DNA from: Bolinopsis microptera
Taxonomy: Eukaryota > Ctenophora > Tentaculata > Lobata > Bolinopsidae
Length of the DNA: 64,000 bases
Reading direction: 5' to 3'
NCBI RefSeq assembly: GCF_026151205.1
Contig: NC_087075.1
Coordinates: 10,774,303-10,838,302, forward strand
A program made the translations under genes and the position numbers. Within the stretch, counting starts at the first letter, position 1. Every line of letters begins with the position of its first letter. The notes below the pieces were generated by a model. The model did no database searches. It was not told the DNA's origin and worked only from the letters and a program-made list of their open reading frames with translations. This document shows positions 6,900-58,000 of this stretch, piece by piece.

Positions 6900-7092
6900 A
6901 TGAACAAAGGAAGTTTCAGAAGACGAAACTATGTTACCTCAAACCTCTGGTTCAGCGAGGGACTCGATACAGTTAAGAAAAAGGAGGGTTCCGTGGAAGA
7001 GTCGTCACAAAGGAAAGAGAGTGTGGAAGAGGAGCCGCCAGGGCAGGGTTTCCTCTCTAGAACACTTCACGGCTCATTGAGGCGAAGGAAAG
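6900..7092 (+). CDS. Alternative first exon A of the PLEKHG5-like gene (phase 1)
   Basis: ATG at 6900, 64 codons plus one base, donor GTTCGT at 7093. The peptide starts MNKGSFRRRNYVTS. It is basic and Ser/Glu-rich, with KKKEGSVEE and SQRKESVEEE, and ends GSLRRRK. An acceptor-like TTTTGTGTTCAG ends one base before the ATG, so an untranslated exon may precede it. Phase 1 matches acceptor 19692. The RRR and RKES motifs are candidate basophilic-kinase sites. Confidence 0.6.
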
Positions 7093-10000
7093 GTTCGTTT
7101 TGTGTCTGGCCTTTATTAAATGCTATGGGAGCGGGAGGGAGGACATAAAATTACAATTTGGAGCAACTATATTACATTTAAAATTCCAATTCTGAATTTC
7201 ATCGATAGTTTACTGGAAATAAGAAGCCCATTATGATAAAAATGGGAATGTGCTGCTGGTGAATAGCTGGTATTTAGCTGAATTTTGGACTTTTGATGAA
7301 GCCTAGTCTACCGTTTATCTATGAGTATGGACTACTTGGCCCGAATTTGCAGGTCAATGTAATTATGCATAAAATAAATTAACATATACGGCACTGAGCT
7401 TTCGAACGGCACTATGCTCCTGACACAGTAGTCACAAAAACACAAGGCAGTAGACATAGCTAGGAGTAACATGGGAGTAAGTTCGTGCACAACGAATGAT
7501 GCCAAAACAGATCAGAGATAACAATTACCATTTAAAAATGAGTACACGTGCCAAAAGTGCCGCGCATTTAGTGTCAACGAATCACGCGTGTAAGAAAGCG
7601 CGTTTCGATCATTTTTAACCGTGTCTGGCGATATCAAAATATGGCACCAAGTGTTGCTACACGCGTCCACATTGAATGTACGATCCTTAATAGTGACTTT
7701 AGTATCCATTTGTATGGGGATAGATGGTTGTTTGTTCCACATCGATGGCCCGTGCTCATCTTGATGGCTGTTGAAACCGATTATGCGACCACCCCTCCGT
7801 TCAATTTGCCTTTTTAGTTTTTGAACAAGAATCTACAAGTGAGAATTCTACTTTGGAAGATTTGGTTTAGTGGAGTCTTCGCGACTGTCCCTGCTGTACC
7901 GATTCATTAGAAACAAAACAGCTCCTCATACCAAATGTTGCGTTCGGCGGTTCAAGAAAGAAAGCAAAGGCTGTCAAGGAAAAGTCTCCGTAGACAGAGT
8001 AGTGATACATTAGGGAAAATTGTCCTTAAATTCCGCAATTTGAATTACAAGAAACTCCCGATAGCCGATTTCACCCTAGATTATGGTAAGTTCTGCATCG
8101 TTCATTGTTGATACAAGTGCCTTGCGTTATATTTATGTTTTCTAATGATCTCATATTTGCCTGTAAACTTTCCTACTGTCGCCTTTAAAAGGTTATTTAT
8201 CAGCTTAGTTATAGATCTCTGACTGATTTGTCGGCATCGAAGGAAACATCAAACATTTCCCGAGAAAGCAAATAAATTTGGTATAAAATTCGATCCACTT
8301 TTATGCACGTACTAGTTGTTCGTCGTCCCATTTTGAATTTGTATTTAACCACCTGATAAGTGATCCGGAGAAGCCTATGTGTGGACTGTGGCCTATAACG
8401 TGTCTTGCTTCTTGATTCGAAGAAAATAAATGTATCGACGAAAGGAAAAATTTAATTCACGTTTGGTGATTGGTCAATAAATATATTATATGTTTAAGTA
8501 ACAAAAAAACATAAATAAATGTCTAATGTATTATGCATGTACTGTGTACAATATACATTATCATGTTGTTGAGTGTAGCAGGATTAGACGGTTCAATATT
8601 TTAGGGACGTTCAATCAACTCCAGGTAAACATCGCTTGGCTGAAGAAATGAGGGCCAATACGTTTGAGCCTCATAATATCCTCTTGTGAACTGTCTCTTG
8701 GAATTTGAAGAAGCACATTAAATCATTTTTAAGCCTCTTGGTTTACTTTTTAATTCCCTTTATAATTCCCTCAAAGAAATTATGATTCGTTGAAATTGCT
8801 TGAATGAATCTTACTTTGCGAAATCTCCACCAACTTCTTCAACCATCGTGCCATCTGTCATTCTAAAGTTTATTTATTATAGAAGTTTTCCAATAAATAA
8901 TAAATGTATTTATTACTTTATTAATACAGTCGCTTATTTAAAAAACCATTTTTCACCGGAAGGGGTCTCACTTTCAACTCGCACATCCTACGTACAGTGT
9001 ACACATCACACATTTCAAACTGAACATAATCACACAATACACATCAAACATTACAAACGTGACAGCAGCGTGACGGACCCGCACAATACAGCTCTGGTTT
9101 GCTCAGTAAGAGGAAACTAAGTGAACCTCCTTTGTAATAACTCCCTTTGTCCATGTCACGTGACCCCAGACTTGTAGCTGTTTTTAGGCTTTTAATTCTC
9201 CCACCTCGTATCGTGGATGGCTCTTGTTATCTATGCTATTTTTGTGTGATATTGTAGTGAGTTGTTGTACACTATATAGCTTTAAGTTCGGCTGATTGTG
9301 ATGGAAGGGCTATGAAATCTCCGAGTTTTGTTTGCTGTAAAGATATCTGTCAAGGAAATGAGCCGGGAGATATCGAGGCTGATGATATTGTAGCAGAAGT
9401 TAAAGTTGTGACTCAATCTAATCATGAAGTGATCCCAGCGAACAGTGTAGTAGAGAGTCAACTTTCTAGTAAAGCTTGTGCGATGGAGGTAGAAGGGGAT
9501 GAACTTCGCTCGGAATCTACTGATAACTGCACTGATTCTCTGCCGACTTGTTCTAAAGTGCAGTCTGAGTCCGATTGTAAACATCTTATCCCTCAAAAGG
9601 AGAGCTCCTCGGAGCTCAACCTGCAAAAAAAGGATTCATCGTTACCATCAGAAGCTATGATATCCATTACTTCACAGGATATTGACAGTTTCAAGTCCCT
9701 GATCCAGACCTCACCTCCCAGAGTGCACTACACGAACATCCAAACTAAAAATAGACCAGGACTGAAAAGACGGTCCTCGTGTCACGTGATGAGTTCGAGA
9801 AGAGTGAAACTGTCTCCAGGTCAGATTAAACGGGTAATGACTGCCTCCTTCACTCTCACAACCCCCTTACCAGGCAACAAGCCGTCTCCAGACAACAAGC
9901 CGTCACCTCACAGGAGAACTTCAGTTTCCAGGACCGTCCGACGGTCCTCCCTGTTCCAAATCGGGACACCTCACCAGGAGGTACTGGAAGATGAGGACTC

Positions 10001-13000
10001 ACCTGAAGAGGGTCCCAAGTCTGGGGTAAAGCGGTGGGATAGCTTGAGGAAGAGCATCAAGACATCCTCGGAGAAGTTGGTTGAGATGGCCAGGGTTAAG
10101 AGGAGTAACACTATCGGTGCAGGTCCCAGAGGAGCCTGGAGATCACGGAGGAAGAGTGTTGCTACCACTACTCCTCGACTGTACAACACTACTGCTAACA
10201 TGCCTAACTGTGAGTTTTAGTCATTCTTGTTATCATGCTGAGTCATTCAGCAGAAATATTATTAATATATGATATACCTTAATGCTGTGAATTGTGATCA
10301 CAGTGCTGTCATGCATGATCGGGGGTTTAAAAACACTACTGGATTATACTGCAGAAATAGTTGTATAATGATAATATGCCGTAATGATGTTATTTGTGTC
10401 AATAAAAATTGTCCATCCACTTGATTTACCTTTCCAGAACTTTTTCCATCTTTGGTATTCGTTGCGTTCAGAGAGTTTGAGTCAAGTTCCATTAAAACGT
10501 CGGTATAAAAAAACTGGGCTTATATTTTTTCCTTCATGACATGTATACTAATACAAACTATCATACAATTACAATTACTATGTATGATAGTTTGTAATTA
10601 TTACATAATAATCATATGTTACATAGTAATATAACTTTGGTGTATATAGCCTACTTTCATGCCCTATAATCTAGATGTATGTTTAAGTGTATATATGCTG
10701 TCGAAAAATAAGAACTTAGCTTCGACCACATTCCAACCGCATTTCAACGGCTCCATTTTGTCGGGACCAGAAGATTCTTGTTAAATGGTAATTTAGTGTA
10801 AATAAAAATGTTGGTGGGGACTGGGGATCAGCCTAGCTGGGACATGGATAAAAACATATGTTTTTAGTGTATAGCAAGCTTGCCGTCATCACTATTTACA
10901 GGATTGATCATAAACATAGGCTTGCAGGAAAGGAGCTGGGTGCTGGTATTGGAGCACATTAATTTAAATGTCTTGATATCTGACAGTTCGTTATGAGCTA
11001 TATGTTGGTCAATTCTCAAAATCCATCTTTATCGACTACAAAGTACAAACCTGCTTCTTTACCTCAATATTAGCAATATTTGCCCTATTCTCTTTTTCAG
11101 GAGGGGCTCTGGAACAAATGAATGAAGTTATAATATACTTATAGGTTGTTGGTTTTCGAAGCTTTCAAATAACTTGAGACAATCGCCTTAAGCTCTTATC
11201 TCTATTTCAACTGATTTAGGAAATAATGTACGTATAACTTGGCCAGTGGTTCTCGTCATTATTTTAACAATTGACTAAATGTTAAACTAAGAAGCGCAGT
11301 GAATGGAACACTCCGTAGTCCGTTATCACATGCGAATACATAATACACAAAGCTCGTGTTGTACCTCGTTCCTACTTGAATATTTATTCCGGCCGCCCAC
11401 GTGCAAATCTCGTGCTCTGTGAGACATGTCACGTGAGTTTTCTCTTTAACCACGTGGGCCAACATGTGACATCCGCACTGTCCTCTTACTGGGCACTGGT
11501 TTATCTTTCATTTAAATAGTTAGTTGATGAAATTAATCAAATATACCCTATCTGCACGTATTTCACTGTTAGTGTGATCCCTCCTCACATAATAGCCTTT
11601 GATTATCGGATAACCCCGAAATAGTGTCACATGTCATCCCCCACTCTCCTGGCTCTCCACCCGTTGTAGACCCTGGTTAGTTCCATAACTAGACTGTTAA
11701 ATGGGGTCTACCCTCAAAATATTGGCTAATGAGGCCACTCAGTGCCCTGTATAGAGAGAGCCCGGTGATGTACAGTAAATGCCCCTATGGCAGTACGACT
11801 CGTGTGGTTCTCTCTCTCTCTCCGTTATATACAGTATGTACTACGTCTATACTACAGTTATAATACCAAGTTTAGTGCTACATATCCTCGTCTCCCTTGA
11901 CAACTCAGGAGTGTAGAATATATATCATGGTATATTGCTTATCATCATTATGAGAGGGGGAAGGATAAGGATTCTCTAGTACGATGATGACATTATTATT
12001 AGGAGTACATTGCACCGGGTTGTCCACGCTTACTTCGTTCAGTGACACGTTATATTCGACTTGTACGTACTTTTTATTCGTTTAGGGAGTTTGAACTGTT
12101 TGTAGTGGTTTCTCTTCCGTTTGTTAGTTTGTAAGTGGTGATTATCCTTTGAGAACATTTGGTCGTTTCTGATCGGCTTTAGTTTTATAATTAACTAATT
12201 ATTAGTTTCAGCTTCTTTCTAGTTTTTTAATTAACTAATTAAATTTCGCTTTGTTAGATCTTGAGTTGTTTGTAAATAGCGGGGTCCAGTAATGAGCCTG
12301 TTCGACTTTGTCAAAGAGATAGAAAAAGGTGAGTTTTTGCAGTTTTAGAGCATGTAATCCATTTTCCAAGAATTTCACCGCTTAACTATAAAACATGAAG
12401 CTGTCAAGCTGTCATGTTAGGGAAATATCAAAATATCGTTTAAAATACAGCAGAAAAATCGCTCAGTTGTATTCCTCAAACGTTTTAATGCGTCCTATAA
12501 CATCCTGTAACCTAGAGATCTTCTAGAGAACTTTTAGAGAACTTTTAGAGAACTTTTAGAGAACTTTTAGAGAACTTTTAGAGAACTTTTAGGGAACTTT
12601 TAGAGAAATTTTATAGAGCTCTGTGAGATGTTTTTTGAATTTTGGCCCTCCTCTGCTCTTAGAGATCATTGCTCCGTCTTGCTTGAGCCACCTAACTACC
12701 TCTACATCACAACAACCAGAACATACGTCTATACGTCCCTATAGCTTTTAAAACTAGATAAATGTCTCGATATTGAGGCTCCGTTTTATACAGTGTGTTT
12801 CTAGAATCTAGACCTGAGTCACGTGACGTGCTTGTACCCTCACTTTTCGTACATTAGTCCGCAGTCACTCTCACTTGTTTACTGTTTAGTCTGTCTCTCT
12901 CTTTCTCTCTCTCTCTCTCTCCCTCTTGAGCCCCACTTCATTTAAACATTGTGCTTTTACGTTATCTCAAGGTCGTATTTTATCGTACTAGATTTCTCAT

Positions 13001-16000
13001 TGCAGTATTGATGGAGGCCTGACTGCAAGTATCGCAATGATTTTTCTTCATTCAACATCTTAACGAGCTTGCTATGAAATTATCTTGAAGCCAGTTTCCG
13101 CATTAATCATACGATTAGTTGAATGTTCAGAAGAAAATCGGATAAGATCAAGATCGTTCACGTTGTTGAGACAAAGGATACACTTGTTATTTTTAGGAAA
13201 GGTAATAGTTCACTTTTCATTTTTTCCAAAAAATTGAAATCAAAAATTCGAAACGTTAAAATTTAGATAAAATACAAAGCTAGGCGTACACATTATCAAA
13301 TGAATTTATTAAATCCGAAAACTACGTAAAAAAGTGTCCTTACATTTCATAAATCAGATATCTTCAATTGTTTTGTGAGGTGAAACATAGTGACGTAGGA
13401 ATAAAGGCTGATTTTGGACGCTAGATTAGATTTGCCACCGTAATCTGTATAGTCAGAGATGAATTGGTCTGACTTATAAAATCAGTTCATGATCTCTCAT
13501 TTGCATTCGACAACCTAACCCCACTAACCCCTCACGGGACTGCAATGAAATTATCCTGGAGCTAGTAAAACCAAGAATCACTGTCACGATCCAAACCAAA
13601 TACCCAAATATGGTCACTTCTCCACCAGTATCCACTTTTATTTGTCTGAGCACTAGAAGCAAGATAAGTTCTTCCTCAGTCACCAACTTTACCTGTTACC
13701 GTAACAGTTCCAATTTGCTGTAAAATCATTATTGTTTCTCTCCAGTCATGCAGGCTCCAGACTGCATAAAAAGCTCAGTTTTATGACCTTAAGAGGACGG
13801 CCAGTTCGCTGTGCTGCGCTGACATCTTCAAACGGCCTTTTGGACCCAAACGAATGGCTCGTACGGTAGCTGGAAAATTTTGAAACCATACTTTTAGTTG
13901 AAACGCAAGAAAATAATTTAACGACTATGACACCGTATATACAACTAAACATTTAATTTTAAAATTGTACACTGTCGATGATTTTACCTCGTTTTCCGAC
14001 CAGCTTTAAACATATTGAACGATTATTAATGCACTGCACTACTTTTCATTTATACATTGAACCTGTACATTATACATTGCGCTTTATTTCCAATCTTGAA
14101 TTCGAGCTAACTTTAAAAGTTTAAAAGAAATAAAGCTTGAGTATGCTGACAAATCACCGCCATTAGTAGAGATCACTTGAAAGAGATAAGAACTATCACA
14201 CTGTTACACTTTGTCAAGAAACAGCAGGTTCTCATGCTGACAGAGGATTCAAGTTAAATATCTGACTGGAATAGTAATAGCTTGACCTGCAGTCTGTAGT
14301 ATTGAAATAACATGTGTTTCCATTATCCATTATGATAACATGTGTTTCACGATAATATGTTCTCCACTTTTGGAATCTCAGTCCACTGTATTGTTCTCCA
14401 TTTCCCGAAAACACCTCTCCATTTCCACCCTGCATGATATGTACGACAAGCCTAGCTTTTAAATGATTATTATAATAATCTCACTGCTAATCTCGTGCGA
14501 CTGCAGTCAGCAGTGACAACGCTTATCACTACACTTGTGCGTTAGCTAATTGCTTATGTTGTATATTGTAATGATATATTATATTGTAATGATATGTGCC
14601 GTATATTGTAATGAGGTATCGTCTAGTACATATCCCAAATACTCAAACAGGCTAAAGTTCTAGACATCAACCGTCCTGTAATTACCTCACATCCTGATCA
14701 CCTCATATCCTCTCATGTTATCTATCTGTCATAATGTGACGAAACTCAACCTTGTTATTAGCTAACCAGAGTTAACATTTAACCAACCCCTGGTCGGTCA
14801 TCCCTACCAGACGTAATCACCAGATCCCATCTGATATTTCCAGGACCAGAAGGGTGGGATCCTCTACTGTTGCTCTGTCACATTTCATCTCATGACAACT
14901 TGATCTCCGAGTTTTGATCTGCGTTGCCATGCAAGGGCACTCTACTTTTGCATTGTTGGATCTCCGATTGTTAACCTGAACCGAAAACATTTCCAGAACT
15001 CCTAAATCGCAACTCTTACACGTGCCACGAGATTAGTCTATACCTTAGCTCGGGCTCTTTAACCTGTAGAATTCTAACAATGCTACAAATCGAAAGCCTT
15101 GCTTTTATTAGGGGTACTTTTTGTCCAGAAATTTAGATTGAGGCGCCAGTTTATTGCGAAAAGTTGCGGTTGAATAATGAATATTGTTGAAAAGTGTTCC
15201 TCGGCCATTAATGATTAAGTTAATTGTAAAATGGGGCCAGAGCAAAGGTCTGGGTAACTTGTGTTCCAATATGATGGATGCTATTGGAATTCTTAATAAC
15301 ATAATGACTTTTATAGTCTACCCTTGGTTCAGCCATCGTCTTCCATTACTTGATGAAAGTTTCAAATCAAATCAAGCATACTCAATGTCATTTGAGCGTG
15401 GAACACAGCAAAAATTGGGGGATGATTCTTTATTCTTAGAAATTTCAGGGGAAATTCATTCCCCTTCCCTTAGCGAAAAATGTACATTCTTTTCTAAACC
15501 AAACTAGTGCCCGGTCCCAAGTTTCACTGTTTAACTTATCAGCGCAGTTTAAACCACGCTCATTACAGCATGCAATATTCACAATATTCAACCCCTTATA
15601 CGGAATACATAAACTCAGATTAGCATATTGAATTAACTAATCATAAGTACCTGATAAAGTATAGTCGAAATCCGATACAGCATGTTCAGCAGTAACGTGC
15701 TGTTATACATTGTACCTCTTGTGTCATACTCTGTATATCTTACTTTTACTTCACTTTCACTACACCTTATTACACTTTTACTACACCTTTACTACACCTT
15801 TACTACACCTTTACTACACCTTTACTACACCTTTACTTTACGATTACATACTTTATAATTACTGTATTATTACCGTGCGGTTATAAATTATACTTCTACA
15901 GTATTTTGTTAATTAAAGAATACATTGTAATAGTAAATTCAGTCGATCGTTCTAGTAATGTATCTCTCCACGTGCAATTGTACTTTTATTGTAGCAGATA

Positions 16001-19000
16001 ATTGGTAAATATAAAACATTGCCTGGTTTAGTACTATAATTGTACTACAGTACTACTATAATTGACTCAGACACACGGGGATTGTTTACTGTAATTGTGT
16101 CATGGCATGTACTACTTGGTTTTGTATGTTAACTTATTCTGAACAAGTGCACTTCATTGGTGTATTGTGGTCATTATTGTATGTAATTATTGATTGTATC
16201 GTATTGTATGCTTGGGAATTCTGGAAACATGTAATCGGAATTGTATCGTATTGTGATTGGCTGGGGGGATTCTGGAAACATTTAACATAGTCATTGCATT
16301 GTTTTGTTTGCTTGGAGTTGGTAATGTGAATTTTAAATCTGTACAGCTGCAGACTGCTGAATTTATGTTGTGTAGTACTCTTGAAAGTAGCAATTATTAC
16401 CTGTAGTTGTTGTAATTGTGTTTGCTAATGCAGTTCGCCCATCTATTACTCTATTAGTTTTGGTTTTATACTGTGAATACTGAATGTATGTGTCGAGTAG
16501 AAATATAAGTAGAAATAATGTAGAAATAAAGGTAGAAATAGAAGGTAGAACGTAGTTTCATGGTCACAAATAATGTTTCTGTGGAAACTATTGCTTAAAG
16601 ATAAGACCTGTACTCGTGGGATGTGGGAATTGTAACTTTGAGAAGCACCAGTAAATCATAAAGCACGTGAGCAATGAGGATAATAATAAATACTATGCGG
16701 AAAGGCCCTGATAAAATCTATATTGTGTTGAATTTGAGCAAAATCCGTGATGAGTATGTTTTCTGATAACACGACTATTGTATATAAAGTAAGCCCTTAG
16801 AATTTAAAACATAGTTTGGATCCTCGAAATCCTTAAAAAAACAAATGAATCCCCTAAAACCTGAAAATAGAGTGCAGTTTCTCCGTGAAGTTCACGTGAA
16901 GCAGGGGTGATAGTTACACACCATAATTCAATACCCTGGCTCAGGTGGTCGCTGAAATTGGGTATTTAGTAGGATTGACGTGTTAGAACTGTGTAAAGTG
17001 TGTGGTAACACAGTGCTCATGTTAACCGTAACATAGTACCTACTCCTCCTCTCTTACCTTTTCTAACCTTCTCCCTGCTTTGGAGTTTTGTAGCGTCAGT
17101 ATTTCGTGTGTATCTCGTTGTATTTGTAGTCAGTATTTGTAGTCAGTAGCCCGTTGGTCACATGCCTAAACTTCTAGGAGGTAAGGGAAATTGCTGATAA
17201 ATAAAGTTTGGTCTTTTAAAGTAAATTTGGTAGTGATAACGTTCCAAGGTTATGAGATTGATGAAAACTTAACCTACTAGATCTGGACGGTCGTTAACTG
17301 TCAGTGTTAAACAGTTTGTTACCTGCATCCCTTACAGTCCTCATTCTAATTTCTAGATGGTTCTCATTCTGTATCGTATATTTTTTTCTTCTCTTTCCAG
17401 AACATATATCGTCCGTATAATTATAACGTCTTATGTATAAGTTAAAAAACGTATAAAACGTTTATCGGAGTACTTATCAAATGTTATCCTGTGTGTATTA
17501 CTATTCAATATTCATAACGTCGCTCTACTCTGTGCGGTGTTGTAATGTCAGTATTTCGATAGTTGTTGTCAGTTTTTGTAGTATGTAAACTGTTGTTGTT
17601 GTCAGTATTTCGTCAGTCTTATGCTTATTAAGCGATTCGTAGGTAAGATTACTAAATAACAAATTTAGTTTCTTGAGAGTATGATGAAAAAAGGCGTTAT
17701 AAGTTTATGTAGGTGATAAAATACTAATCACTAGAGTCGGGAAGTAGTTACATCCTTACAGTTTTCATTGTAAATGTTCATGTTTCAGGTCCTTTTTAGA
17801 TAACGCTCCAATTTAACGTAGTTGGTCGAGTACTACCTACTAGAGTATAAGTACTAGGTTATGGAAGTAGTTAAGTGGTCTTAATCCCTCTTAATCTGCT
17901 CTGTCTCCATTCCAGGCGATGTTCTGCAGTTTTTAAAGCTTATGTTCCGTCTTCGCGGTAACTTATTAATGCTTTTCATAAAAAGTTACAATGAATTATT
18001 CATGTTATGCATCCTGGGTTTGGACAGGATATGACCCGTTTAAAATATTTCCACCACGTTACATTACATAATTCTCAATAAATATAATAGATTTGTAGTG
18101 TTGTAATTAGTTTATTTATAATTGGTTTCTCCCCAAGTTTTAGAGAATTATTTACGGACATTACTTGTCTGTAAATTTATAACGTCTTAGGTATAAAATA
18201 AATACGTTCTAGAACGTTCAGATAAAAGTATGACGATGTTTTAGAATAAATGTATGACATTAGTATAAAGATACAAGTATGGCGTAGTACAAAGTCTAAT
18301 TTATAATGATTTATGACAATGTATAAAAGATGTCACATTTTATATTGACAGTGATTATTGGATCGAGCTGCAAAATCACTTCTACAATAGTGTATATATA
18401 ATTTAACACGGCCATGTTTTGACCGTGTAAACACTGTGTGTAATGCATATTATACTTTTTCATATTTTTAACTTAATGATCTCTTGTAATATTTTTCTAG
18501 AAACATCCCCTGGCAAGTGGCAGGTGGTTGTTATACGCACATTTGTAACACGTGTTATTTTCCTGCAACGATGAGTCATCTGTAGTACTTTAGGAGTCAA
18601 GGAGTGTCCCTCTAGTTTTGTTGCTATTGTTATCTTGATAATAACATTATAAGATAAGGCCAGTAACATTTAGTCACAAATCTGTATGATCTGGGTTATG
18701 GAACTTAACACTGAAATTACAATACTACTATCGTTTTTAGGGTAATCTTGATACGTATCACTTCATAATAATGCGCTACATTGTAAGTTTTAAGAGTTAT
18801 AGACTGGATTGGGATTGCACCCTGTTTATGAGCCAGTATATTCGTGTTGTAGTGGTACGTTGTGTCCTTAATCGTTATCAGCAGGTCCCACCATTCACCA
18901 ATTTAAGTTCATGTTAAGCCATTTTTTATCAAACAAATCATCGTATAAATACTACTCAGTATAACGTAATGATCACATGATGCCACGGATAAAGTACAAG

Positions 19001-22000
19001 TACAAATACCACACCGTCTCGAGTGGTACAGCTTTACACGCCCTCTCGGGTGGGTTAGAGAGGCTAAGTAGTGGTTTAGAGAGAGGCTCGCCCTTCTCTA
19101 GTAGTGGGTTAGAAAGAGGACCCCCTCTCTTCAGCCGGTCTAGACCCCATGTTGCCAGTCTTTTTACCACCAACAACACTGTGAACAGTTCTGCAGGTAG
19201 ATTGGTGTTAGAAATACTAGATCTTATCGTTATCTCTCTTTTGGGTTTTGGTTTTGTTATTCTAGCCTTCTTGTATCTTAATATCTTTATACTAAAATAT
19301 GTATTTCCGGTGGTTCTGTCATGTCTTATATGATAGATGAGTAAATTTATCAGCACTTTCTGCACAAATTAGAGCTCAAGAAATCTTTTTGAGAGAAAAA
19401 TAGTTCAGATACCTTAAAAAGTAGTACAAGTGATAGTTGTTTTGGGCCCCGATTTTTAAGTCAAACTTATAAGATACCGCGTTCAATGAAATTTAATTCA
19501 ATTTACACGGAGCGTATTTTAATCACTATTCTTCTTCATCTTGTTTAGAAGATATGCTGAAATGTTTAAAGACAATTTACCTTCAATATCTATTTTATGA
19601 ATGAAACTATAGAACGAGCACAATAACAAGCGCATTCCATTTTCGACTACTTTCACTTTCACGTTGCAATAACTTTCTCTTTCTCTTTCAGTTAAGAAGT
19701 GTGACAGTTCTGCTAGTCTCTCCTCCACAGATTCCTGCGATTGGGATGAAAGGAAGTGAGTAAAACTGTAAAATATCTCTTCACTTTACATAAGAATAGT
19801 CCAGTTACAATTCATACTGTTCATATTTTAATAATATGTGGTATGGTGGGCTTTCAAAATTGGCAAGTGAAGCAACCTTACTTAATACTTGGCTACAAAA
19901 TAAAGGAGTACTTATATAAATCTCCGGTAAATAATAATTATTCGTAATTTTATAATTCCCCACTTTCAGGAGAACCATCTCAGCTAACATAAAGAGGAAG
20001 TTAGGAAGTGTCAGCTCTAGAAAACAAGTGCAGAGTGTGAGCGATGCCGCCCCACCCTCACCGCTGGTGCTGCTCTCTCCAGCTAATTTAATGGTACATT
20101 TTACTTTTAAAACCAGCTTATTTTAGAGATTATATTGGCTGATACCCCAATTTACCGGTCCTTCAAGTCCCTCCTCCAGAACACTTTAGAAAAACTGGGA
20201 GGTTTCATTGATATCGTGATAACTACATCACATTTCCCTGTATCTTTTGATCAGGTTTCTGGCTTGCTAGCCTACTTAGTGCTTATTTGTCGAACTCTCT
20301 TCTGACAACTAGCCACCTGGTTGTATCAGTTTTCCCTGTCTTATCAGTTATCATCTCTTTGTTATCATCTCTTTGCTGTATTTAAATGTTTATCTGTAGT
20401 GTTTTCGATCTCGCGCCAATTGTGCACGTTTTTCCTCTAGTATTACTATTATACGTGACTGCGAGAGTTGTATAGCTATGTGTATTACTAATACTACAGA
20501 TTACCCAGGATTATTTAATGCTTACTACAGATTGCACAGCATTACATAAGATAACACAGGATTACACAGGATTTTCACAGAATTACACAGGATTACATAG
20601 GATTAAAATAAAATTATAGCCCCACTATCATGAACCGTCATAATCGTTCACAATTGGATAAACATAATATCATCATTTATCATCCAAGTTGGTTTGAGTC
20701 AGAGCCAGGGTTAGCCTGATGCCCTTACGTAGAAATAATGCGTGAGGTTCTCACCAAATTGACATTAAGATTGTTAAGGTTTCGCGCATTTGTACTACAT
20801 TGGCGCATATCTTGATCGGTAAAACTATTCTGCTATTATGAGTTGGAGTTACGTGAACGGCACAGGAACGCCTTTCTTGTGGGGTGTTGGGTTCAATGTT
20901 GAGTAACCGGTTGCAGTGAATATGAAAGCCTTCATATTAAGTGGTTACTGGTTTGGTGTCGTGACTGAATTTTAACAGATCTGTGAAGGAATCTTTTAGT
21001 ATTTTACGATCAGTGAGATCACTCTCAGGGTTGTGAACGGCTTTGTTGGATTGAGACAATTGAGCTTGTAAATTGTATCTAGTTCAAGGAGTGGTTTGAT
21101 GTATCGATATCAAGGAAGGATTTCATGGATATAGTGTCTTGAGTGTTATTTCAGGGATGTAACGATATCCTAGTTGTCAATAACTACACCGAGGTTATTG
21201 TAAGGAAAGAAACATAAAATAAGCTATAATTTTACATAAAAATATGTTAAAACTTTACTCAAGACACTACAACGTCTGGGTGACCTCAGTTACAACAAAA
21301 TACGTGTTATTATACTCTGGAATGTGTTCTTGCAACTGTTTTGCAAACTCTGCAGCCGTGCAACTATGCTACGTAACACAACTTGTTAGGTCACCAAATA
21401 CTCATGACTCATGAGATAATGCCCGATCGCTTGTCAACAATCCTTAAAACATTTATACTATAATTTGCACAGGGGCGGGAAAACTTAAAACGTTAAACAG
21501 AAAATACTTAATTTGCACACTTTTTTTTTCGAACCCGCCTAAAATTCAGAAGCCTTTTTACACTTAGCATTCTTATTACATGTCTAAATAAGCGCAGTCG
21601 GCATAACAAAACCCGCGTACGCGTATAATAGTCAGTAACATATAATAGTCAGTATTAACATAATTAAGTAGGTACGGTCCCCGTTAGACGATGTTTAAAG
21701 CCCCTGCGTGCTTATTGGCCAGGTACTGCACAGGTTTGAAATGTGCACTGATGGCCGCGCTGGATCACTGGAAATATTTTTTGCTTTCAATCTAGGAACA
21801 GCTGAAAATAACATTGAATTTCTGAATTGCAACAGCAAAACAAAAAGCGTGAAATCACACAGATGCACTGTTCATGATTTTAGCAAAGCGAGCTTCAGTT
21901 AATATAACAGTTACAACTGCGACTAATTACTTTGATATAAATATACTATAATATTTGTGCGTCTAAGTAAAAGGAAGTGCAACTAAATTAATATATAAGG

Positions 22001-37000: not shown

Positions 37001-40000
37001 GACGATGTTTGGTAAAATACCTATAAATACCTATTATTCCCTCCGATTTCAAAATAGGTTTAGGTTTTTATGTATATTTTTGAGGTTGACGCCCTCCCTC
37101 TAAGGGATAAAGTTGTAGTTATACATCTAAAAGTCGGATGCTGTAGTGGGCGTGGGAAAGCAGGTTGTATTCTTGTCTGCCACCTGACATTGATTCGCTA
37201 ACTATTATTTGGCAATCAAACTCCAGAAGAATTGACACGTCAATTGTCAATACAAATTCACCTCCCCAGTCCCCACCGGTATTCAGACCTTTTGCTCAAC
37301 TTTATCCTTGTTCCCTGTTCGGGCATGCCATGAAGGTAGGGTTAGGGTTTGGTTTTACGTTTTAGGTGCCGGATACAGAATAAACCGTTTAATGAAAAGG
37401 TCAAACATCATCCGTGTTAGCACCGGCAGGATTATTAGGTTATTACTGAACATACCGTGAAGTTAAGCTACACTTTTATTTTGTTAACCAAGCTTGTTAT
37501 CCTTTGTGGTCGAACTTTTCTTGACATCTTACTAGTTGTGGACACAACAAGAAAATTGAGAATAATCTTGTGCGAGGGTAGGGACCCAGATGTCGTTTCT
37601 AACCCAAATAAACTTTAAGGAGGCTTCTCATCAGTAGCCGCACCTCCTTACTCGGTTTCTGAACTGGAATTCTATGGGCTTCCAGACGGCCAGACCGAGT
37701 ATTACCACCCCATCCTTCTAGAGTTCATCACAAGTAGCACCCACCTTGAAGATCTTTGACACCCAGACACACCCCATTGGCGAACAAACTTTGGACATAA
37801 TCTTACATGCTCCCGAAGGAATCCCTGGTTTATGGTCTTTCTCATCGTCACCAGCACTTTCACTAGGTCACCAGCTCTTTCACTGAAGTCATCAGCCCTT
37901 TCACTGAAGTCATCAGATGTGACTCTGATCAACGGTATAGTTGTGGACACAACAAGAAAATTGAGAATAATCTTGTGCGAGGGTAGGGACCCAGATGTCG
38001 TTTCTAACCCAAATAAACTTTAAGGAGGCTTCTCATCAGTAGCCGCACCTCCTTACTCGGTTTCTGAACTGGAATTCTATGGGCTTCCAGACGGCCAGAC
38101 CGAGTATTACCACCCCATCCTTCTAGAGTTCATCACAAGTAGCACCCACCTTGAAGATCTTTGACACCCAGACACACCCCATTGGCGAACAAACTTTGGA
38201 CATAATCTTACATGCTCCCGAAGGAATCCCTGGTTTATGGTCTTTCTCATCGTCACCAGCACTTTCACTAGGTCACCAGCTCTTTCACTGAAGTCATCAG
38301 CCCTTTCACTGAAGTCATCAGATGTGACTCTGATCAACGGTATAGTTGTGGACACAACAAGAAAATTGAGAATAATCTTGTGCGAGGGTAGGGACCCAGA
38401 TGTCGTTTCTAACCCAAATAAACTTTAAGGAGGCTTCTCATCAGTAGCCGCACCTCCTTACTCGGTTTCTGAACTGGAATTCTATGGGCTTCCAGACGGC
38501 CAGACCGAGTATTACCACCCCATCCTTCTAGAGTTCATCACAAGTAGCACCCACCTTGAAGATCTTTGACACCCAGACACACCCCATTGGCGAACAAACT
38601 TTGGACATAATCTTACATGCTCCCGAAGGAATCCCTGGTTTATGGTCTTTCTCATCGTCACCAGCACTTTCACTAGGTCACCAGCTCTTTCACTGAAGTC
38701 ATCAGCCCTTTCACTGAAGTCATCAGATGTGACTCTGATCAACGGTATAGTTGTGGACACAACAAGAAAATTGAGAATAATCTTGTGCGAGGGTAGGGAC
38801 CCAGATGTCGTTTCTAACCCAAATAAACTTTAAGGAGGCTTCTTATCAGTAGCCGCACCTCCTTACTCGGTTTCTGAACTGGAATTCTATGGGCTTCCAG
38901 ACGGCCAGACCGAGTATTACCACCCCATCCTTCTAGAGTTCATCACAAGTAGCACCCACCTTGAAGATCTTTGACACCCAGACACACCCCATTGGCGAAC
39001 AAACTTTGGACATAATCTTACATGCTCCCGAAGGAATCCCTGGTTTATGGTCTTTCTCATCGTCACCAGCACTTTCACTAGGTCACCAGCTCTTTCACTG
39101 AAGTCATCAGCCCTTTCACTGAAGTCATCAGATGTGACTCTGATCAACGGTATAGTTGTGGACACAACAAGAAAATTGAGAATAATCTTGTGCGAGGGTA
39201 GGGACCCAGATGTCGTTTCTAACCCAAATAAACTTTAAGGAGGCTTCTCATCAGTAGCCGCACCTCCTTACTCGGTTTCTGAACTGGAATTCTATGGGCT
39301 TCCAGACGGCCAGACCGAGTATTACCACCCCATCCTTCTAGAGTTCATCACAAGTAGCACCCACCTTGAAGATCTTTGACACCCAGACACACCCCATTGG
39401 CGAACAAACTTTGGACATAATCTTACATGCTCCCGAAGGAATCCCTGGTTTATGGTCTTTCTCATCGTCACCAGCACTTTCACTAGGTCACCAGCTCTTT
39501 CACTGAAGTCATCAGCCCTTTCACTGAAGTCATCAGATGTGACTCTGATCAACGGTATAGTTGTGGACACAACAAGAAAATTGAGAATAATCTTGTGCGA
39601 GGGTAGGGACCCAGATGTCGTTTCTAACCCAAATAAACTTTAAGGAGGCTTCTCATCAGTAGCCGCACCTCCTTACTCGGTTTCTGAACTGGAATTCTAT
39701 GGGCTTCCAGACGGCCAGACCGAGTATTACCACCCCATCCTTCTAGAGTTCATCACAAGTAGCACCCACCTTGAAGATCTTTGACACCCAGACACACCCC
39801 ATTGGCGAACAAACTTTGGACATAATCTTACATGCTCCCGAAGGAATCCCTGGTTTATGGTCTTTCTCATCGTCACCAGCACTTTCACTAGGTCACCAGC
39901 TCTTTCACTGAAGTCATCAGCCCTTTCACTGAAGTCATCAGATGTGACTCTGATCAACGGTATAGTTGTGGACACAACAAGAAAATTGAGAATAATCTTG

Positions 40001-43000
40001 TGCGAGGGTAGGGACCCAGATGTCGTTTCTAACCCAAATAAACTTTAAGGAGGCTTCTCATCAGTAGCCGCACCTCCTTACTCGGTTTCTGAACTGGAAT
40101 TCTATGGGCTTCCAGACGGCCAGACCGAGTATTACCACCCCATCCTTCTAGAGTTCATCACAAGTAGCACCCACCTTGAAGATCTTTGACACCCAGACAC
40201 ACCCCATTGGCGAACAAACTTTGGACATAATCTTACATGCTCCCGAAGGAATCCCTGGTTTATGGTCTTTCTCATCGTCACCAGCACTTTCACTAGGTCA
40301 CCAGCTCTTTCACTGAAGTCATCAGCCCTTTCACTGAAGTCATCAGATGTGACTCTGATCAACGGTATAGTTGTGGACACAACAAGAAAATTGAGAATAA
40401 TCTTGTGCGAGGGTAGGGACCCAGATGTCGTTTCTAACCCAAATAAACTTTAAGGAGGCTTCTCATCAGTAGCCGCACCTCCTTACTCGGTTTCTGAACT
40501 GGAATTCTATGGGCTTCCAGACGGCCAGACCGAGTATTACCACCCCATCCTTCTAGAGTTCATCACAAGTAGCACCCACCTTGAAGATCTTTGACACCCA
40601 GACACACCCCATTGGCGAACAAACTTTGGACATAATCTTACATGCTCCCGAAGGAATCCCTGGTTTATGGTCTTTCTCATCGTCACCAGCACTTTCACTA
40701 GGTCACCAGCTCTTTCACTGAAGTCATCAGCCCTTTCACTGAAGTCATCAGATGTGACTCTGATCAACGGTATAGTTGTGGACACAACAAGAAAATTGAG
40801 AATAATCTTGTGCGAGGGTAGGGACCCAGATGTCGTTTCTAACCCAAATAAACTTTAAGGAGGCTTCTCATCAGTAGCCGCACCTCCTTACTCGGTTTCT
40901 GAACTGGAATTCTATGGGCTTCCAGACGGCCAGACCGAGTATTACCACCCCATCCTTCTAGAGTTCATCACAAGTAGCACCCACCTTGAAGATCTTTGAC
41001 ACCCAGACACACCCCATTGGCGAACAAACTTTGGACATAAGTTATATATATATATATATCGAGACGATAGATTTCCCCAGATTTCCCCACTGCTTTTAGT
41101 TTGTATTTATTCTCAATTGTATATGATTCGTATTTGTTGTAGTTACTTTAATGATATAATTTCTCAGAATTGATGTAAATAAATGATGCAAAGACTTTCG
41201 ACGATCTAATCACAACCGCTTTCTTTTATTGTGTAGAAGTCCAGCCATGAAATATATATATATATCTGTGCCATTTTACTGACACCACGGCATCAACTTT
41301 AACGCGACTTTCCGCAAAAACCGTAAAAGATATACAACTGGAACTTTTTTGGCTGAGTCAAATGCTTTAATGGCCTTCAAATCAGCATGAAAAAATAAAA
41401 AATTGGCCAAGGAATAATGATTTTAGAGCCTAAAATTTGGACCCCCAAGTGGTGTCAAAAACGCCAATTAAATAGGTAATAATTATTTTAGTATTTTGAG
41501 TCTTGACACCGTTTAGGGTTATATTATACGGGTTCCTGCTAGTGTAACCAAATTGTGGTATAATTATAATTATTTGTTGATTATCTAATATAATTATTTG
41601 CGGAACTAAGCTTTAAATATCACCCGATCGAACAGCTTTTGATTAATGAAGGTGAGATGTCCTCGGTACGGATAAAGAACTACTCGACGGAGGAGGGCAG
41701 ACAGCTGAAACGGCTCACCAAACAAAGGAGCCTTCCTCACGGGTCTTTTAAAGTGAAGGTGAGAATTATTGGTAATCTTTCTTCGCTCTTATGAGTGGGT
41801 CGATCATATATTTTTATGATAGTTGATGACGAAGTGAGAGTCTTCACTCAGTGTTTCAAAACAAATTAGTTGTCGACGTTTCGGCAACATGAGAGTAGCA
41901 AGTTTCCCGTCCTTCCTGTCCTCGAATACGTTTGTCTCGTCGTTATTGTTATGTATCTATGACCTACGTATAGTTAACCTAGATAATAATTTCTCCAGAC
42001 AATTTTTTATAAAATTACAGTTAAACACCAATTTGACGGGAGTCTTGCATTGGGAGAAAGAAAATGATGTCTAATTTTCTCAGAAAATTGGGGATTTGAT
42101 TTCAACTAAACACGCTTCATTAAACAATAAACATGTCTCGCATGTTTGGGAGATAAGAAGTTAAATGTACGTTTAACCTGTCAACAAGGATCTTATTTCC
42201 TTTGGTTTAATTAGTTGACAATGATTGTGTATTTGGTTATTATTTGGTAATCTTGATCAATTAATTAGCGTTGGCAGGGAGATCATGAATACATATTATA
42301 ATGATAACATATAATAGATAATGTTACACTAACATTTAACGATTTATACATTATTATAATCGTTCCGTGGAACCCAGCTGCCATGTTTTATCATTAGCAT
42401 TGATCGTATGTTATTCTTCCTGTTCTTCCTTTCTACATAATTCATTTTCTTTCCTGGAATCACTTTTACCTCGACGAAACAAGGCTCATATTAACGATGA
42501 TGCAATAAGGAGAGGAAATTAAATGTATAATATGGGTCAACTTTCATTGTTCTAAGCAGTGTTGTGATCCGTTTGTCTTGCTTTTGTTTACTCTGGTTGA
42601 CTCATGTCTATTGTTCAGCGACAATAGTCTCAAAGTAATACGCATTACCAGAAATATACGATATATATGTAATACCCACTATTCAATACCCAACATCCTC
42701 GCAACAAACGTCAACCTCATTAGCAGCAAAAAAATCAAATTACTTTTTCCAAACTTTAACTAAGCGAGCTAGCACAAAGAAACAAATCGCAGATCAGTAA
42801 CTTTATTACGTATAATCAATGTAAGTAAAACGGATCAATACGCCCCCTAGTCAGCTAGGTCCTGATAATGGTCACCTAATAATCAACAGATCTACAGTAT
42901 ATTTTATTGAATACAATTCTACATCCTAGAGGAACAGGCTGAGACACGCGACGCACATAATAATTCCAGCCCACTCTGTGTGTGAGAAATGTTCAATAAT

Positions 43001-55000: not shown

Positions 55001-58000
55001 CGAAAATTTCAAAATTATGCGAAATTACGCGGAAAATGCTAGATTATGCGGAAATATGCAAAAAATTACAAAATGTGCGGAAGTGTGCGGAAAACAATAA
55101 ATTATGCGGAAATGTGCGGAAAACGGTGATTTGTGCGATCCCGCACCCATCGCACCTAATATGTGCCTCTGTAGCTGCTACAAGTATCAATACAATTATT
55201 CAATTGATGTCCCAAACAAACTTGTCCCATCAGCTAACGAGTCTATTGTTTTCTGGACTTCTCTTTTCAATCGTTGACCAATGACCCCTCGTGTCATTAT
55301 ACTGTCCTATTTATAGCAGTGGTACGATCCCCAATCCCCATCAATTCGTGACATTTTCGGGCGAAGAATTATAATATTCCCTAAATATTACCACAAAACC
55401 TCCTAGCATGTTATCCTTGCTTCTATTTGCTTATGCCTGTCTGATTATTTCCTTTCTTTACACTGGTATTATACCTGGCATGAAGGTTGCATTGTTCAGT
55501 CGCTGAAATATTTCTGTTTCTTTTTTACGTCGGTTCTGGCTTGTTTATATTTCCTTGCTGTCTGGATTTAATACTTATAGTTATGACTAAATTTGTCTTA
55601 TTCGGTATTATATCAAGGACGGAAACAATCGAATTTTTCATCACTTCTTCCAAATTGCGCTTTATTATCTACTGATTAATTCATTGTGCTTGAGACTTTT
55701 GTTATGTCATTTTATCATTCTCATGCATAGTTTTCAAATTATTCGTTCCCACTTTACTTTTTATCTGTTATCGTTTTATGCGCCAGTGATTTGCACCAGT
55801 TGGTAGCCTCTAGATACGATAGCCTCTACGATTATTTAGTCTATACTGTCTTTGTAGCCACTAGGATTATTTAGTCTATGTTGTCTTTGTAGCCACTATA
55901 CTTGTAGCCACTATACTTGTAGCCACTATACTTGTAGCCACTTTACTTGTAGCCACTTTACAGCCACTTTTTAGCCACATTTAGCCACCAGGATTATGAG
56001 TGGTGGCATGTACCAGAGATCCCTCAGCTTCGGAAACAATCCAATATCAGTATCACAGCACCGACGTAGAGCATTTATTCAGCGCAGGACTGTGTCTCTT
56101 TGTACCCAGGTAGTAGTTAAAGTGGCAGTAGTGGTAGAACTTATTGTGGGGAACTATTAAAGTTAAAAGTAGTGATACTCATCATCAGGAAGTATTTATA
56201 GAGGGAACTAGTTGTTATTGTACTGAACTACAATTGAAGTAGTTCAGCTCGTTTCTGTTTATAGTACCTGCTGGATATCTGAATGGAACTCTTGGATATG
56301 TGGTAGTTGAGGGGTGAGGGAGGGCCGATGGGGTGGAAGACACATGCGGCAAGTTAAAACTTCAGTCTGCCTGCAAATTTTTTTTTGGTTGTGGAAACAA
56401 TCCACGCTATTCAATGCGAGAGTGTTTTTTTACTTTTCACTGATCATCCCACAGGTCTAAAATGTTGGTTATACTAATTCAATTAGTTAACTATTACTGA
56501 TTTTAACCACAACTAATAATAATTACTGTATCAAATTTTGATAAATAATTATAATTAGATAATTAATTATCATAATACTTTCACCGTGTACTAATACATA
56601 ATCTATTTCAGAGTGGGGTGAACCTGAAAGAGGCGCTGATATGCCAGTTCCCTGACGGTACGGAAGAGATTGGGGCTGCTAAAAAAGGAACCACACTCAG
56701 GTAAATTCCCATAAACTGCTCACTTTGACAATCATGTCCTGCATTTACCTTATGCTTCAAAGTTCAAACAAATATTTGACACAGCATTTCGCAATTCGCA
56801 TCCTCATGTGCCAACCTTGACATATTAATCAGTCGACATCAATCACTCTTTCTTCCTGCCATAATATTATAATAATTTCCTCGGTGATGATATGTTGTCC
56901 TCAATTTAACAATCACTTCCTCAGGGAGATGCTATCCCCAATATTTGACCGACGGAATATGTCAATGAGTGAGTACGCAGTATTCCTAGAACAGTCCAAT
57001 ACTCCCCTAAAGTACTCCTTCGATACCTTCCCTCTTGCTGGCATGACACTACTCATCCAGGGCGGTGAGTTACCTTGCTTAAATTATGTTATTTATTATT
57101 CAGATTAATAGGTATTTAATTTAATTATAGGTAGTTGAATTAAAGCGCTGAGCTGATATGATGCTCTTTCTGGCTACCTCGGAACTATAAACGTTTGACA
57201 TACAAGAAGTAGATCGATGGAATTAAATAAAAAAGGTAGATGTTCTTCGACTTTTAACCGTCAAAAGAGACAGTAAATGTACCTACTAGCCTCCAAAACC
57301 TCCTCACCACTCCTGTCACAACACAGCACTGCTGAAGTAAGAGTGAACGTAAGATAATCTGAGCATCCCGTCGAATCGCACGCGAAACATGTCACGACAT
57401 GGCTAAATAGCGGAGTATAAATATGTTGAAGGTTTTTGGGACCTGAATCATTTAAAGTGTTTTTAAGAGCAATTTTATATCCCCGTTTCTCTCAAACAAA
57501 ATTGCTCGTGCATTGGTTTAATACACGTTTAAAATATTGCGTAAGATTAAACTGCGCTACTATAATCTGTTTTAGTTATAAACTTCATTATATACGATGT
57601 ATTGAATCTCGTTCAGAGATCTGGGTACTATTTAGAAGGTATAATTTTCTGACACGCGAAACAGCGATTTACCAACCAGACTCCAGCGTTGGTTAACCAA
57701 AACTCATAAATCATGCTGTCATGATTCACGATGGTTACTGTCTGACGTGTCTCAAACAATATGGTGGACCTCCCCACACCAGTATCATAATATGTTGCTC
57801 CGTGTTTTGTGCGTGTTTTGCACCATGTTCTGCAGACTGCTCTGGAACAGAAGTAGTATCAATATCACATCTCACCTCATGGCACCATCCGTTACAACAG
57901 AGGATATTTCATAACAATATGTAATGTAGTCTCTCAGTTGTGAAGTCGTAGTGTTAACTTGATACTCTAGTACAGACCGGGCCTGTAGAGTGTAGAGTCC

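Follow-up and report, generated by a model that had tools for sequence, protein, structure and literature searches.

A candidate four-tier array of alternative first coding exons in a PLEKHG5/Tech/Syx-type RhoGEF locus of Bolinopsis microptera

Introduction

Can one RhoGEF gene be entered through many alternative first exons, each supplying its own N-terminus? This question is raised by a stretch of 64,000 nt of Bolinopsis microptera DNA (the window), for which an earlier note had proposed up to twelve ATG-led first exons in two tiers over about 49 kb, bound by a strict phase rule and feeding one RBD/RhoGEF-like core. The reading favoured here, which we judge fairly probable, is that roughly nine alternative first coding exons, each with its own ATG, are arranged in four tiers within one PLEKHG5/Tech/Syx-type RhoGEF gene.

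Core exons and identity of the gene

All coordinates are positions in the window, with values above 64,000 lying beyond its end in the same numbering, and all donor and acceptor bit scores were obtained with generic splice matrices. A domain scan of exon pieces joined by eye revealed a tandem DH-PH unit (RhoGEF, E=8.2e-24; PH, E=5.2e-9), the DH exon of which lies ~60 kb past the window end. A Pfam RBD match spans 56612-57064 in two exons (E=1.9e-7 for both exons together). The core exons in the window are as follows, with the next one predicted ~25.6 kb downstream of RBD exon 2, at 82718, outside the window:

19692-19755, plus strand: core exon c1, enters in phase 1, leaves in phase 2; acceptor 12.7 bits, donor 7.9 bits
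19970-20093, plus strand: core exon c2, enters in phase 2, leaves in phase 0; acceptor 10.3 bits, weak donor 3.7 bits
56612-56700, plus strand: RBD exon 1, enters in phase 0, leaves in phase 2; acceptor 3.7 bits, donor 9.0 bits
56925-57064, plus strand: RBD exon 2, enters in phase 2, leaves in phase 1; acceptor 8.3 bits, donor 10.2 bits

Joining of c1, c2, both RBD exons and exons 82718-82860, 83031-83273 and 122781-122897 yielded a single stop-free frame. Entry of the joined core at c1 was free of stops (0) in phase 1, compared with 24 and 23 stops in the other two phases, and entry at 56612 was free of stops (0) in phase 0, compared with 12 and 16, in agreement with the proposal that 19692 accepts only phase 1 and 56612 only phase 0. 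Exon 82718-82860 is open in entry phase 1 only.

With its family assigned by domain order (RBD, linker, DH, PH) and RBD-DH spacing rather than by a tree, the predicted core is a PLEKHG5/Tech/Syx-type RhoGEF. The RBD-to-DH distance amounts to ~184 residues by arithmetic on predicted splicing, compared with 190 residues in mouse Syx (RBD 145-216, DH 407-596; PMC2928299); the same source describes vertebrate Syx/PLEKHG5 as a Raf1-like RBD followed by DH-PH, and mentions the N-terminal variants Syx1a and Syx1b. In contrast to Syx/PLEKHG5, the frame of the predicted last exon ends in SES, without a C-terminal PDZ-binding motif, at what may not be the true end, a further exon being possible. The RhoGEF core returned 43 PDB matches at E<=0.01, all to other RhoGEFs (best ARHGEF11 and intersectin), with PLEKHG5 absent among them. 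A PDB search with the RBD alone gave a single, meaningless match (E=0.36), and a whole-genome search with the Pfam RBD family gave none, probably owing to the division of the domain between two exons. When the joined c1-c2-RBD peptide was searched against the genome, its four exon matches were all at its own locus, and thus no paralogous copy was found.

Candidate first exons

The eight longer exons on which the earlier note had placed most weight were not listed there, and were inferred to be those starting at 6900, 7935, 9312, 18977, 32958, 41657, 43427 and 55996. Coding signal was assessed by a leave-one-out codon test, the model of which contains the other exons of the same locus, against minus-strand frames that begin with ATG and run to at most 40 codons. 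Short exons are poorly resolved by this test, the true RBD exon 1 scoring z=2.1. The following candidates were obtained in the window, tier 1 being those that would join c1 at 19692 and tier 2 those that would join the RBD exon at 56612:

6900-7092, plus strand: suggestive as a tier 1 first exon of 64 codons with exit in phase 1; z=2.9; donor 5.7 bits
7935-8085, plus strand: candidate for a tier 1 first exon of 50 codons with exit in phase 1; z=1.0, coding unsupported; donor 10.0 bits
9312-10209, plus strand: strong as a tier 1 first exon of 299 codons with exit in phase 1; z=6.1; phase margin 11.3 bits
18977-19196, plus strand: suggestive as a tier 1 first exon of 73 codons with exit in phase 1; z=2.1; donor 7.1 bits
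32958-33398, plus strand: strong as a tier 2 first exon of 147 codons with exit in phase 0; z=4.7; donor 10.9 bits
41657-41758, plus strand: suggestive as a tier 2 first exon of 34 codons with exit in phase 0; z=2.1; donor 10.3 bits
43427-44701, plus strand: strong as a tier 2 first exon of 425 codons with exit in phase 0; z=7.7; donor 4.2 bits
55996-56109, plus strand: candidate for a tier 2 first exon of 38 codons with exit in phase 0; z=0.2, coding unsupported; donor 5.2 bits

Instead of twelve first exons, the window thus holds three strong (9312, 32958, 43427) and three suggestive ones (6900, 18977, 41657). Exons 7935 and 55996 are inseparable from noise, and the very short ones are unsupported; scoring of short exons covered 12292 (12 codons, z=1.9), 13123 (26 codons, z=1.7) and 7496 (31 codons, z=0.4), with frames of 5-7 codons outside its scope. 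Exon 32958 marks the low end of the strong set, its score of 12.4 falling among those of minus-strand shadow frames (13.5 and 13.3). The exact end of 43427 is uncertain owing to its weak donor, with a codon score of -15.6 across the 31 codons past 44701. A Pfam scan of 9312, 32958, 43427 and 6900 revealed no meaningful domain (best E=0.07), and none was found in 18977; likewise, neither RNA families (at the gathering threshold) nor tRNAs were detected in the window.

Six more ATG-led coding exons were identified outside the window, between the RBD and the DH domain:

80307-82536: candidate tier 3 first exon, predicted to join 82718, skipping the RBD
96845 (with 97222), 100580, 106919, 114845 and 121598: candidate tier 4 first exons, predicted to join 122781 just before the DH domain, skipping the RBD and linker

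Among these, 96845 leaves in phase 2 and needs an adapter exon (97222-97381) that itself ends in a weak donor (4.3 bits), and 121598 has a weak donor (2.4-5.4 bits). ATG-led coding exons do occur in the proposed 49-kb array and continue beyond the window, with nine strong exons of up to 743 codons (z 3.2 to 10.5) distributed over the whole locus. Similarly, the two tiers joining at 19692 and 56612 were retained, whereas their number was not, since at least four joining points are predicted with the addition of 82718 and 122781.

That the array is mostly chance, a phase filter having selected its frames out of 49 kb, would suit the very short candidates as well as 7935 and 55996, yet is highly improbable in view of the leave-one-out scores of the nine strong exons. 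Exon duplication as the origin of the array was rejected, as an all-against-all BLASTP of 14 exon peptides gave a best E of 0.48; exon 43427 matched only itself in the genome.

Splice phase

Among plus-strand ATG-to-donor frames of at least four codons in 6900-19691, phases 1, 0 and 2 occurred 10, 7 and 3 times, respectively, with donors of at least 6 bits, 7, 3 and 0 times at 7 bits, and 5, 1 and 0 times at 8 bits; the corresponding minus-strand counts were 5, 4 and 7, 4, 1 and 4, and 3, 1 and 3. Strong tier-1 donors thus lean towards phase 1 (five of six at 8 bits), but the strictness claimed for the rule was not upheld (10 of 20 at 6 bits), and the rule was partly a product of selection, since frames in other phases existed in this span and were left out. 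To the right of 20093, phase 0 was not favoured when all ATG-to-donor frames of 20093-56611 (plus strand, a retroelement and tandem repeats included) were counted (20/58 at 6 bits, 8/24 at 8 bits).

When donors were chosen by best total, blind to phase, eight of the nine strong exons left in the required phase, two scoring runs agreeing on the phases, and the ninth (96845) has a phase-correcting partner. The probability of at least eight of nine is 0.0010 under uniform phases, 0.0029 if phases follow those seen in 189 background frames and 0.0055 under an animal-like distribution. For the six exons outside the window alone, the required phase was found in five (P=0.018-0.056), or in all six with the adapter exon. 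This test set aside 97259 (ATG-led, z=3.5, phase 0; counted within the 96845 unit), 112211 (z=2.7), 108853 (z=1.5) and 3929 (no donor above 4 bits), as well as the weak exons of the earlier note and ATG-containing core exons. The required phase wins by only a narrow margin in 43427 (2.4 bits), 106919 (3.2 bits) and 32958 (4.5 bits).

First exons, internal exons or nested genes

An in-frame stop precedes the ATG by 6-60 nt in each of the nine strong exons, and in eight of them the best acceptor between this stop and the ATG is absent or scores no more than 4.9 bits. As a yardstick, eight of nine core acceptors, which were partly chosen for score, reach 7.5 bits or more, with the true RBD exon 1 at only 3.7 bits. 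These observations bear on the unlikely alternative that the ATG-led exons are internal, either serial or mutually exclusive, with incidental ATGs. For all five tier 4 units, scores are 5.6-9.7 bits higher as an initial exon than as an internal one with phase-0 entry, and no phase-0 acceptor above -0.1 bits lies between stop and ATG; these and the following initial-internal comparisons give no extra weight to internal exons for being commoner. Exon 100580, with any entry phase allowed, gives 61.2 vs 62.1. Near ties that would suit internal exons were obtained for 43427, if entered in phase 2 (79.8 vs 80.2), and for 80307, where acceptors of 8.8 and 7.0 bits lie 16 and 11 nt before the ATG, the latter in the phase-1 register required of an internal exon, and the scores are alike (internal 138.6, or 136.2 in phase 1, vs initial 137.6). 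For the suggestive exon 6900, a 7.4-bit acceptor has its end 1 nt ahead of the ATG, so that this exon could be internal or trans-spliced; it scores 18.2 as internal and 17.4 as initial.

In tier 2, c2 and exons starting from 32957, 43417 and 55992 could serve as alternatives with phase-2 entry after c1, which leaves in phase 2, and phase-0 exit; AGs at these three positions permit such entry, but score only 2.6, 3.4 and 5.0 bits, respectively. Serial inclusion of one tier 3 or tier 4 exon would add 58 to 743 residues, extending the RBD-DH linker far beyond that of Syx. Within the first 40 codons, coding signal is significant for six of the nine strong exons (p 0.024 or less), and not significant for 9312 (p=0.26), 80307 (p=0.11) and 121598 (p=0.11), a point in favour of internal exons that leaves the ATG start of these three unsupported by codon signal. 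Overall, the coding scores, the scarcity of good acceptors and the phases make many own-start first exons feeding one core the best-supported reading, as originally proposed, except that codon signal does not establish the ATG start in these three cases.

A further alternative, considered very unlikely, is that the exons represent independent genes nested in RhoGEF introns, with their own 3' ends. Nested intronic genes are reported to be frequent in Hormiphora (2357; PMC8527503). In exon 9312, the best donor is in phase 1 and an in-frame stop follows two codons past the split codon, making an intronless ORF possible, and a coding-like ORF with a stop is present at 61715-61987. Against nested genes, codon scores drop below zero beyond the donor of eight of the nine strong exons, the phases fit the core, and unassigned plus-strand terminal exons score at most 16.3 (61723-61987), no better than the minus strand (among the 25 of 33 candidates listed; listed exons, the transposase and repeats aside).

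Spliced-leader trans-splicing

A first leader motif, AATTTGAGGT, was rejected, as it gave 1697 vs 901 matches, a two-fold excess, and only two of 20 inspected places were clear leaders. A longer pattern built from these two, a ctenophore-type spliced leader with a GT donor, was clean in the control, with 1692 genome matches (812+880, up to three mismatches) and 0 for the reversed sequence; the matches include a tandem array with ~591-base spacing on C3. Given this abundance, some 5' ends may come from trans-splicing. Few promoters would be needed if a leader were trans-spliced from one upstream promoter onto internal acceptors before the ATG-led exons, a scenario we regard as distinctly unlikely. 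It is consistent with leaders on at least 56% of Iso-Seq reads in Hormiphora, stated as a lower bound (PMC8527503), with the SL1-spliced short form of C. elegans rhgf-2 (PMC3282746) and with the acceptors close before the ATGs of 80307 and 6900. Conversely, for the best acceptor in the 20, 40 or 60 nt preceding the ATGs of the nine strong exons, the mean upper-tail fraction was 0.33-0.35, not clearly above other ATGs.

Proposed organization and comparison with known genes

Under the favoured reading of alternative first exons, the locus would represent a single gene of ~117 kb or more. Tier 1 (9312, perhaps 6900 and 18977) and tier 2 (32958, 43427, perhaps 41657) would retain the RBD exons, while tier 3 and tier 4 starts would omit them. 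Each start would supply its own start codon and a Ser/Arg-rich, probably disordered tail, presumably from separate promoters and transcription starts with mutually exclusive exon use. Such starts may place different phospho-regulated targeting tails on the same GEF, and the downstream ones may drop the RBD, through which Rnd3 inhibits vertebrate Syx. In a more elaborate and rather doubtful version, the locus would act as a nested N-terminus selector of >117 kb, with about nine to twelve starts in four tiers, kinase-regulated tails, a Ras/Rnd-binding brake that is kept or dropped, and some 5' ends made by internal spliced-leader trans-splicing.

Alternative first exons are a known way to diversify a protein, and the scale and layering seemingly reached here are unusual. 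The best reading of the sequence places this locus with multi-first-exon genes such as plectin and dystrophin. The plectin gene (PLEC) carries twelve alternative first exons with their own N-termini, which share one exon 2 and dictate the expression profile (PMC8468861). The likeness lies in alternative first exons with their own N-termini on a common core; PLEC first exons join one shared exon, whereas four joining points, two of them skipping the RBD, are predicted here, and some first exons are long. The dystrophin gene (DMD), with seven promoters, is of the same known kind. Dystrophin is a structural protein to which the internal starts contribute no more than short unique ends, in contrast to the long coding exons predicted as unique ends for this RhoGEF. 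C. elegans rhgf-2, of the same family by domain order, has a long form and the SL1-trans-spliced short form, each likely with its own promoter (PMC3282746), that is, two starts compared with about nine. C. elegans unc-68, a ryanodine receptor gene, likewise has two first exons, with separate tissue-specific promoters (PMC7644089). Among the matches listed, literature on ctenophore alternative promoters and on PLEKHG5 alternative starts or isoforms contained nothing on this locus.

A sister-group position of ctenophores to all other animals has been argued for (PMC10232365). If the favoured reading is true, large-scale N-terminal diversification via alternative starts would presumably not be a bilaterian invention, and RBD-containing and RBD-free Syx-type GEF forms could arise from one gene. 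The predicted junctions (19692, 56612, 82718 and 122781) are clear and checkable with ordinary RNA data.

Finally, RxxS/T motifs were found 75 times in the first exons, compared with 43.7 expected by composition, a count reached in 0 of 2000 shuffles; 148 spurious minus-strand ORFs gave 132 vs 119.9. The motif is also raised in other RhoGEF exons (36 vs 25.6; 39 of 2000 shuffles).

A predicted PLEKHG5/Tech/Syx-like core

The window (38.1% GC) was examined together with flanking sequence of 10 kb on its upstream side and 70 kb on its downstream side. Exons at 56612-56700 and 56925-57064 were found to encode a Raf-like RBD (E=1.9e-7), and a RhoGEF (DH) exon was located on the same strand at C4:10898737-10898874 (window coordinates 124435-124572). 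Downstream of the window, DH-PH pieces joined by eye gave a RhoGEF match of 8.2e-24 and a PH match of 5.2e-9, in agreement with the RBD/RhoGEF-like core proposed in the earlier note. Other core exons were predicted as follows (coordinates above 64000 lie downstream of the window):

82718-82860, plus strand, core exon entering in phase 1 and leaving in phase 0
83031-83273, plus strand, core exon entering and leaving in phase 0
122781-122897, plus strand, core exon entering and leaving in phase 0
123998-124165, plus strand, core exon
125022-125228, plus strand, core exon

When the shared core exons c1 (19692-19755) and c2 (19970-20093) were joined to both RBD exons and to the exons at 82718, 83031 and 122781, the frame contained 0 stops if entered in phase 1, compared with 24 or 23 in the other phases, bearing out phase-1-only entry at 19692. 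By the same count, the sole open entry phase was 0 at 56612, likewise as claimed, 1 at 82718 and 0 at 122781. Arithmetic over the predicted exons placed the RBD and DH ~184 residues apart, similar to the 190 residues reported for mouse Syx (PMC2928299); because of this spacing and the domain order, the gene would belong with PLEKHG5/Tech/Syx.

Coding signal of the candidate first exons

Codon usage was modelled on 3444 codons from nine other RhoGEF frames of the same genome, each taken from stop to stop, with one cut short at a tandem repeat, and leave-one-out codon scores were expressed as z against ATG-led frames on the minus strand. Among the eight longer ATG-led exons that the earlier note had emphasized, named here by start coordinate, support was obtained for 43427 (z=7.7), 9312 (z=6.1) and 32958 (z=4.7); 6900 (2.9), 18977 (2.1) and 41657 (2.1) were suggestive, and the signal of 7935 (1.0) and 55996 (0.2) was indistinguishable from noise in this test. 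RBD exon 1 itself reached only z=2.1, and a low z is therefore no disproof for a short exon. Segment codon scores were high for 43427 (42.1) and 9312 (22.6) and middling for 32958 (12.4), with minus-strand shadow frames scoring up to 13.5, above 32958. Well-supported exons within the window are fewer than claimed. An ATG-led frame at 3929 (3863-4330, plus strand) was also observed, the first 40 codons of which beat 168/168 background frames; its full length is not coding-like, and it has no donor above 4 bits.

Six further ATG-led coding exons were identified between the RBD and DH exons, all past the window end:

80307-82536, plus strand, ATG-led coding exon, z=10.5
96845-97059, plus strand, ATG-led coding exon, z=5.4
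100580-101605, plus strand, ATG-led coding exon, z=6.8
106919-107092, plus strand, ATG-led coding exon, z=3.2
114845-115267, plus strand, ATG-led coding exon, z=4.0
121598-122383, plus strand, ATG-led coding exon, z=7.4

The array of own-start exons feeding one core is probably real, wider and more layered than first described, with tier 1 predicted to join c1, tier 2 to join 56612, tier 3 (80307) to join 82718 and tier 4 (the remaining five) to join 122781. As predicted, it would be of a known kind, comparable to dystrophin, with seven promoters, or plectin, in which twelve first exons all join exon 2 (PMC8468861).

Phase agreement

A strict rule had been proposed, with first exons left of 19692 leaving in phase 1 and those right of 20093 in phase 0. 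At a donor cut-off of 6 bits, 10 of the 20 ATG-to-donor frames on the plus strand of 6900-19691 were in phase 1, as were 7/10 at 7 bits and 5/6 at 8 bits (minus strand: only 4/9 and 3/7 at 7 and 8 bits). Strong donors lean towards phase 1, but the rule as listed is partly selected. Across 20093-56611, no phase 0 excess was detected (20/58 frames at 6 bits, repeats included).

The exons outside the window provide a fair test, because they could not have been seen when the rule was drawn up. With donors chosen by best total score, irrespective of phase, 8/9 strong exons (the six above with 9312, 32958 and 43427) matched the phase required by the next core exon (P=0.0010 to 0.0055 for at least 8/9, depending on background phase frequencies); the six outside exons by themselves gave P=0.018 to 0.056. 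The exception, 96845, leaves in phase 2 and is followed by a predicted 162-base intron and a coding exon at 97222-97381, which enters in phase 2 and leaves in phase 0 through a weak donor (4.3 bits). Phase margins were thin for 43427, 106919 and 32958. Phase agreement is real but moderate support for the array, and the argument is weaker than claimed.

First versus internal exons

Across the nine strong exons, 6-60 nt separate an in-frame stop from the ATG. The best acceptor within this gap scored 2.1 bits for 9312, 2.6 for 32958, 3.4 for 43427, 8.8 for 80307, 3.9 for 96845, 4.9 for 100580, 4.1 for 114845 and -0.1 for 121598, with none for 106919; core acceptors reached at least 7.5 bits in 8/9 cases, yet some of them had been selected on score, and that of RBD exon 1 scored 3.7. 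The first 40 codons were significantly coding in six of the nine, with no significant signal there in 9312, 80307 and 121598.

From these results and the comparison of initial with internal readings, serial inclusion as internal exons is unlikely for tier 4, where, with entry phase 0 as needed, the initial reading won by 5.6-9.7 bits in 5/5; the lead of 100580 over an internal exon entered in phase 1 was just 0.9 bits. For 80307, the two readings tied and the 8.8-bit acceptor precedes the ATG, so this exon may be included serially. Since 43427 came near a tie with an internal exon entered in phase 2, it may form a mutually exclusive set with c2. The frames of the nine extend 2 to 79 codons past their donors, with a negative codon score there in 8/9 (32958: -1.2 over 22 codons; 9312: +0.6 over 2).

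Downstream of the RBD and before the following core exon lies a frame of 90 residues (61715-61987, plus strand) that looks coding, carries its own stop and ends in MTPS. Among 25 of the 33 plus-strand terminal-exon candidates (listed exons, transposase and repeats set aside), 61723-61987 ranked top at 16.3, within the minus-strand range; the frame, whose score is within noise, is possibly a nested gene or an alternative last exon yielding a product that lacks the GEF.

Probable separate starts and possible trans-splicing

When up to 3 mismatches were allowed, CACTACTNTATAACAAATAATTTGAGGT matched 1692 sites across the genome (reversed control: 0), representing a spliced-leader RNA gene family and including a run at ~591-base spacing (e.g. 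C3:13511056-13533417); the pattern resembles the Hormiphora spliced leader reported in PMC8527503. With leader genes this abundant and good acceptors directly 5' of the ATG of 80307 and 6900, trans-splicing is a possible source of some 5' ends; such acceptors showed no clear overall excess, and separate starts are favoured. A likeness exists to C. elegans rhgf-2, of the same RhoGEF family, for which a short SL1-spliced and a long form are described, each likely with its own promoter (PMC3282746). Just 3' of the 32958 exon, a spliced-leader-like copy with two substitutions and no GT donor (33502-33527, plus strand) may represent a defunct leader gene or a copy that became integrated.

Composition of the predicted N-terminal tails

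The residues S/T/R/K/P/E/D/Q/N/G constitute 65-72% of the nine strong exons. RxxS/T, a basophilic-kinase pattern, occurred 75 times against 43.7 expected by composition (1.72-fold; 0/2000 shuffles), compared with 1.41-fold in other RhoGEF exons (39/2000) and 1.10-fold in 148 spurious ORFs (230/2000); it was not raised in the five weak exons 6900, 7935, 18977, 41657 and 55996 (6 vs 5.8 expected). The tails would be interchangeable and phosphorylation-controlled. In vertebrates, the Syx RBD is bound by Rnd3 (PMC2928299), described as a negative regulator of Syx (PMC3282746); tiers 3 and 4 would produce GEF forms without Rnd3-type control.

Repeats and neighbouring frames

The following were also observed:

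L001:1439-2452, minus strand, frame of a neighbouring gene encoding a von Willebrand type D domain, on the opposite strand and ~8 kb before the window start
25809-29363, plus strand, within the large intron, long LINE-type open frame encoding endonuclease and reverse transcriptase domains
37533-41040, tandem array, 405-base unit, 8.7 copies, 99% matches
58949-59289, intron 3' of the RBD, tandem array, 18-base unit, ~19 copies
L002:6852-7925, plus strand, downstream of the window, transposase-like frame with a helix-turn-helix DUF4817 match
L008:7197-9014, minus strand, downstream of the window, reverse transcriptase frame
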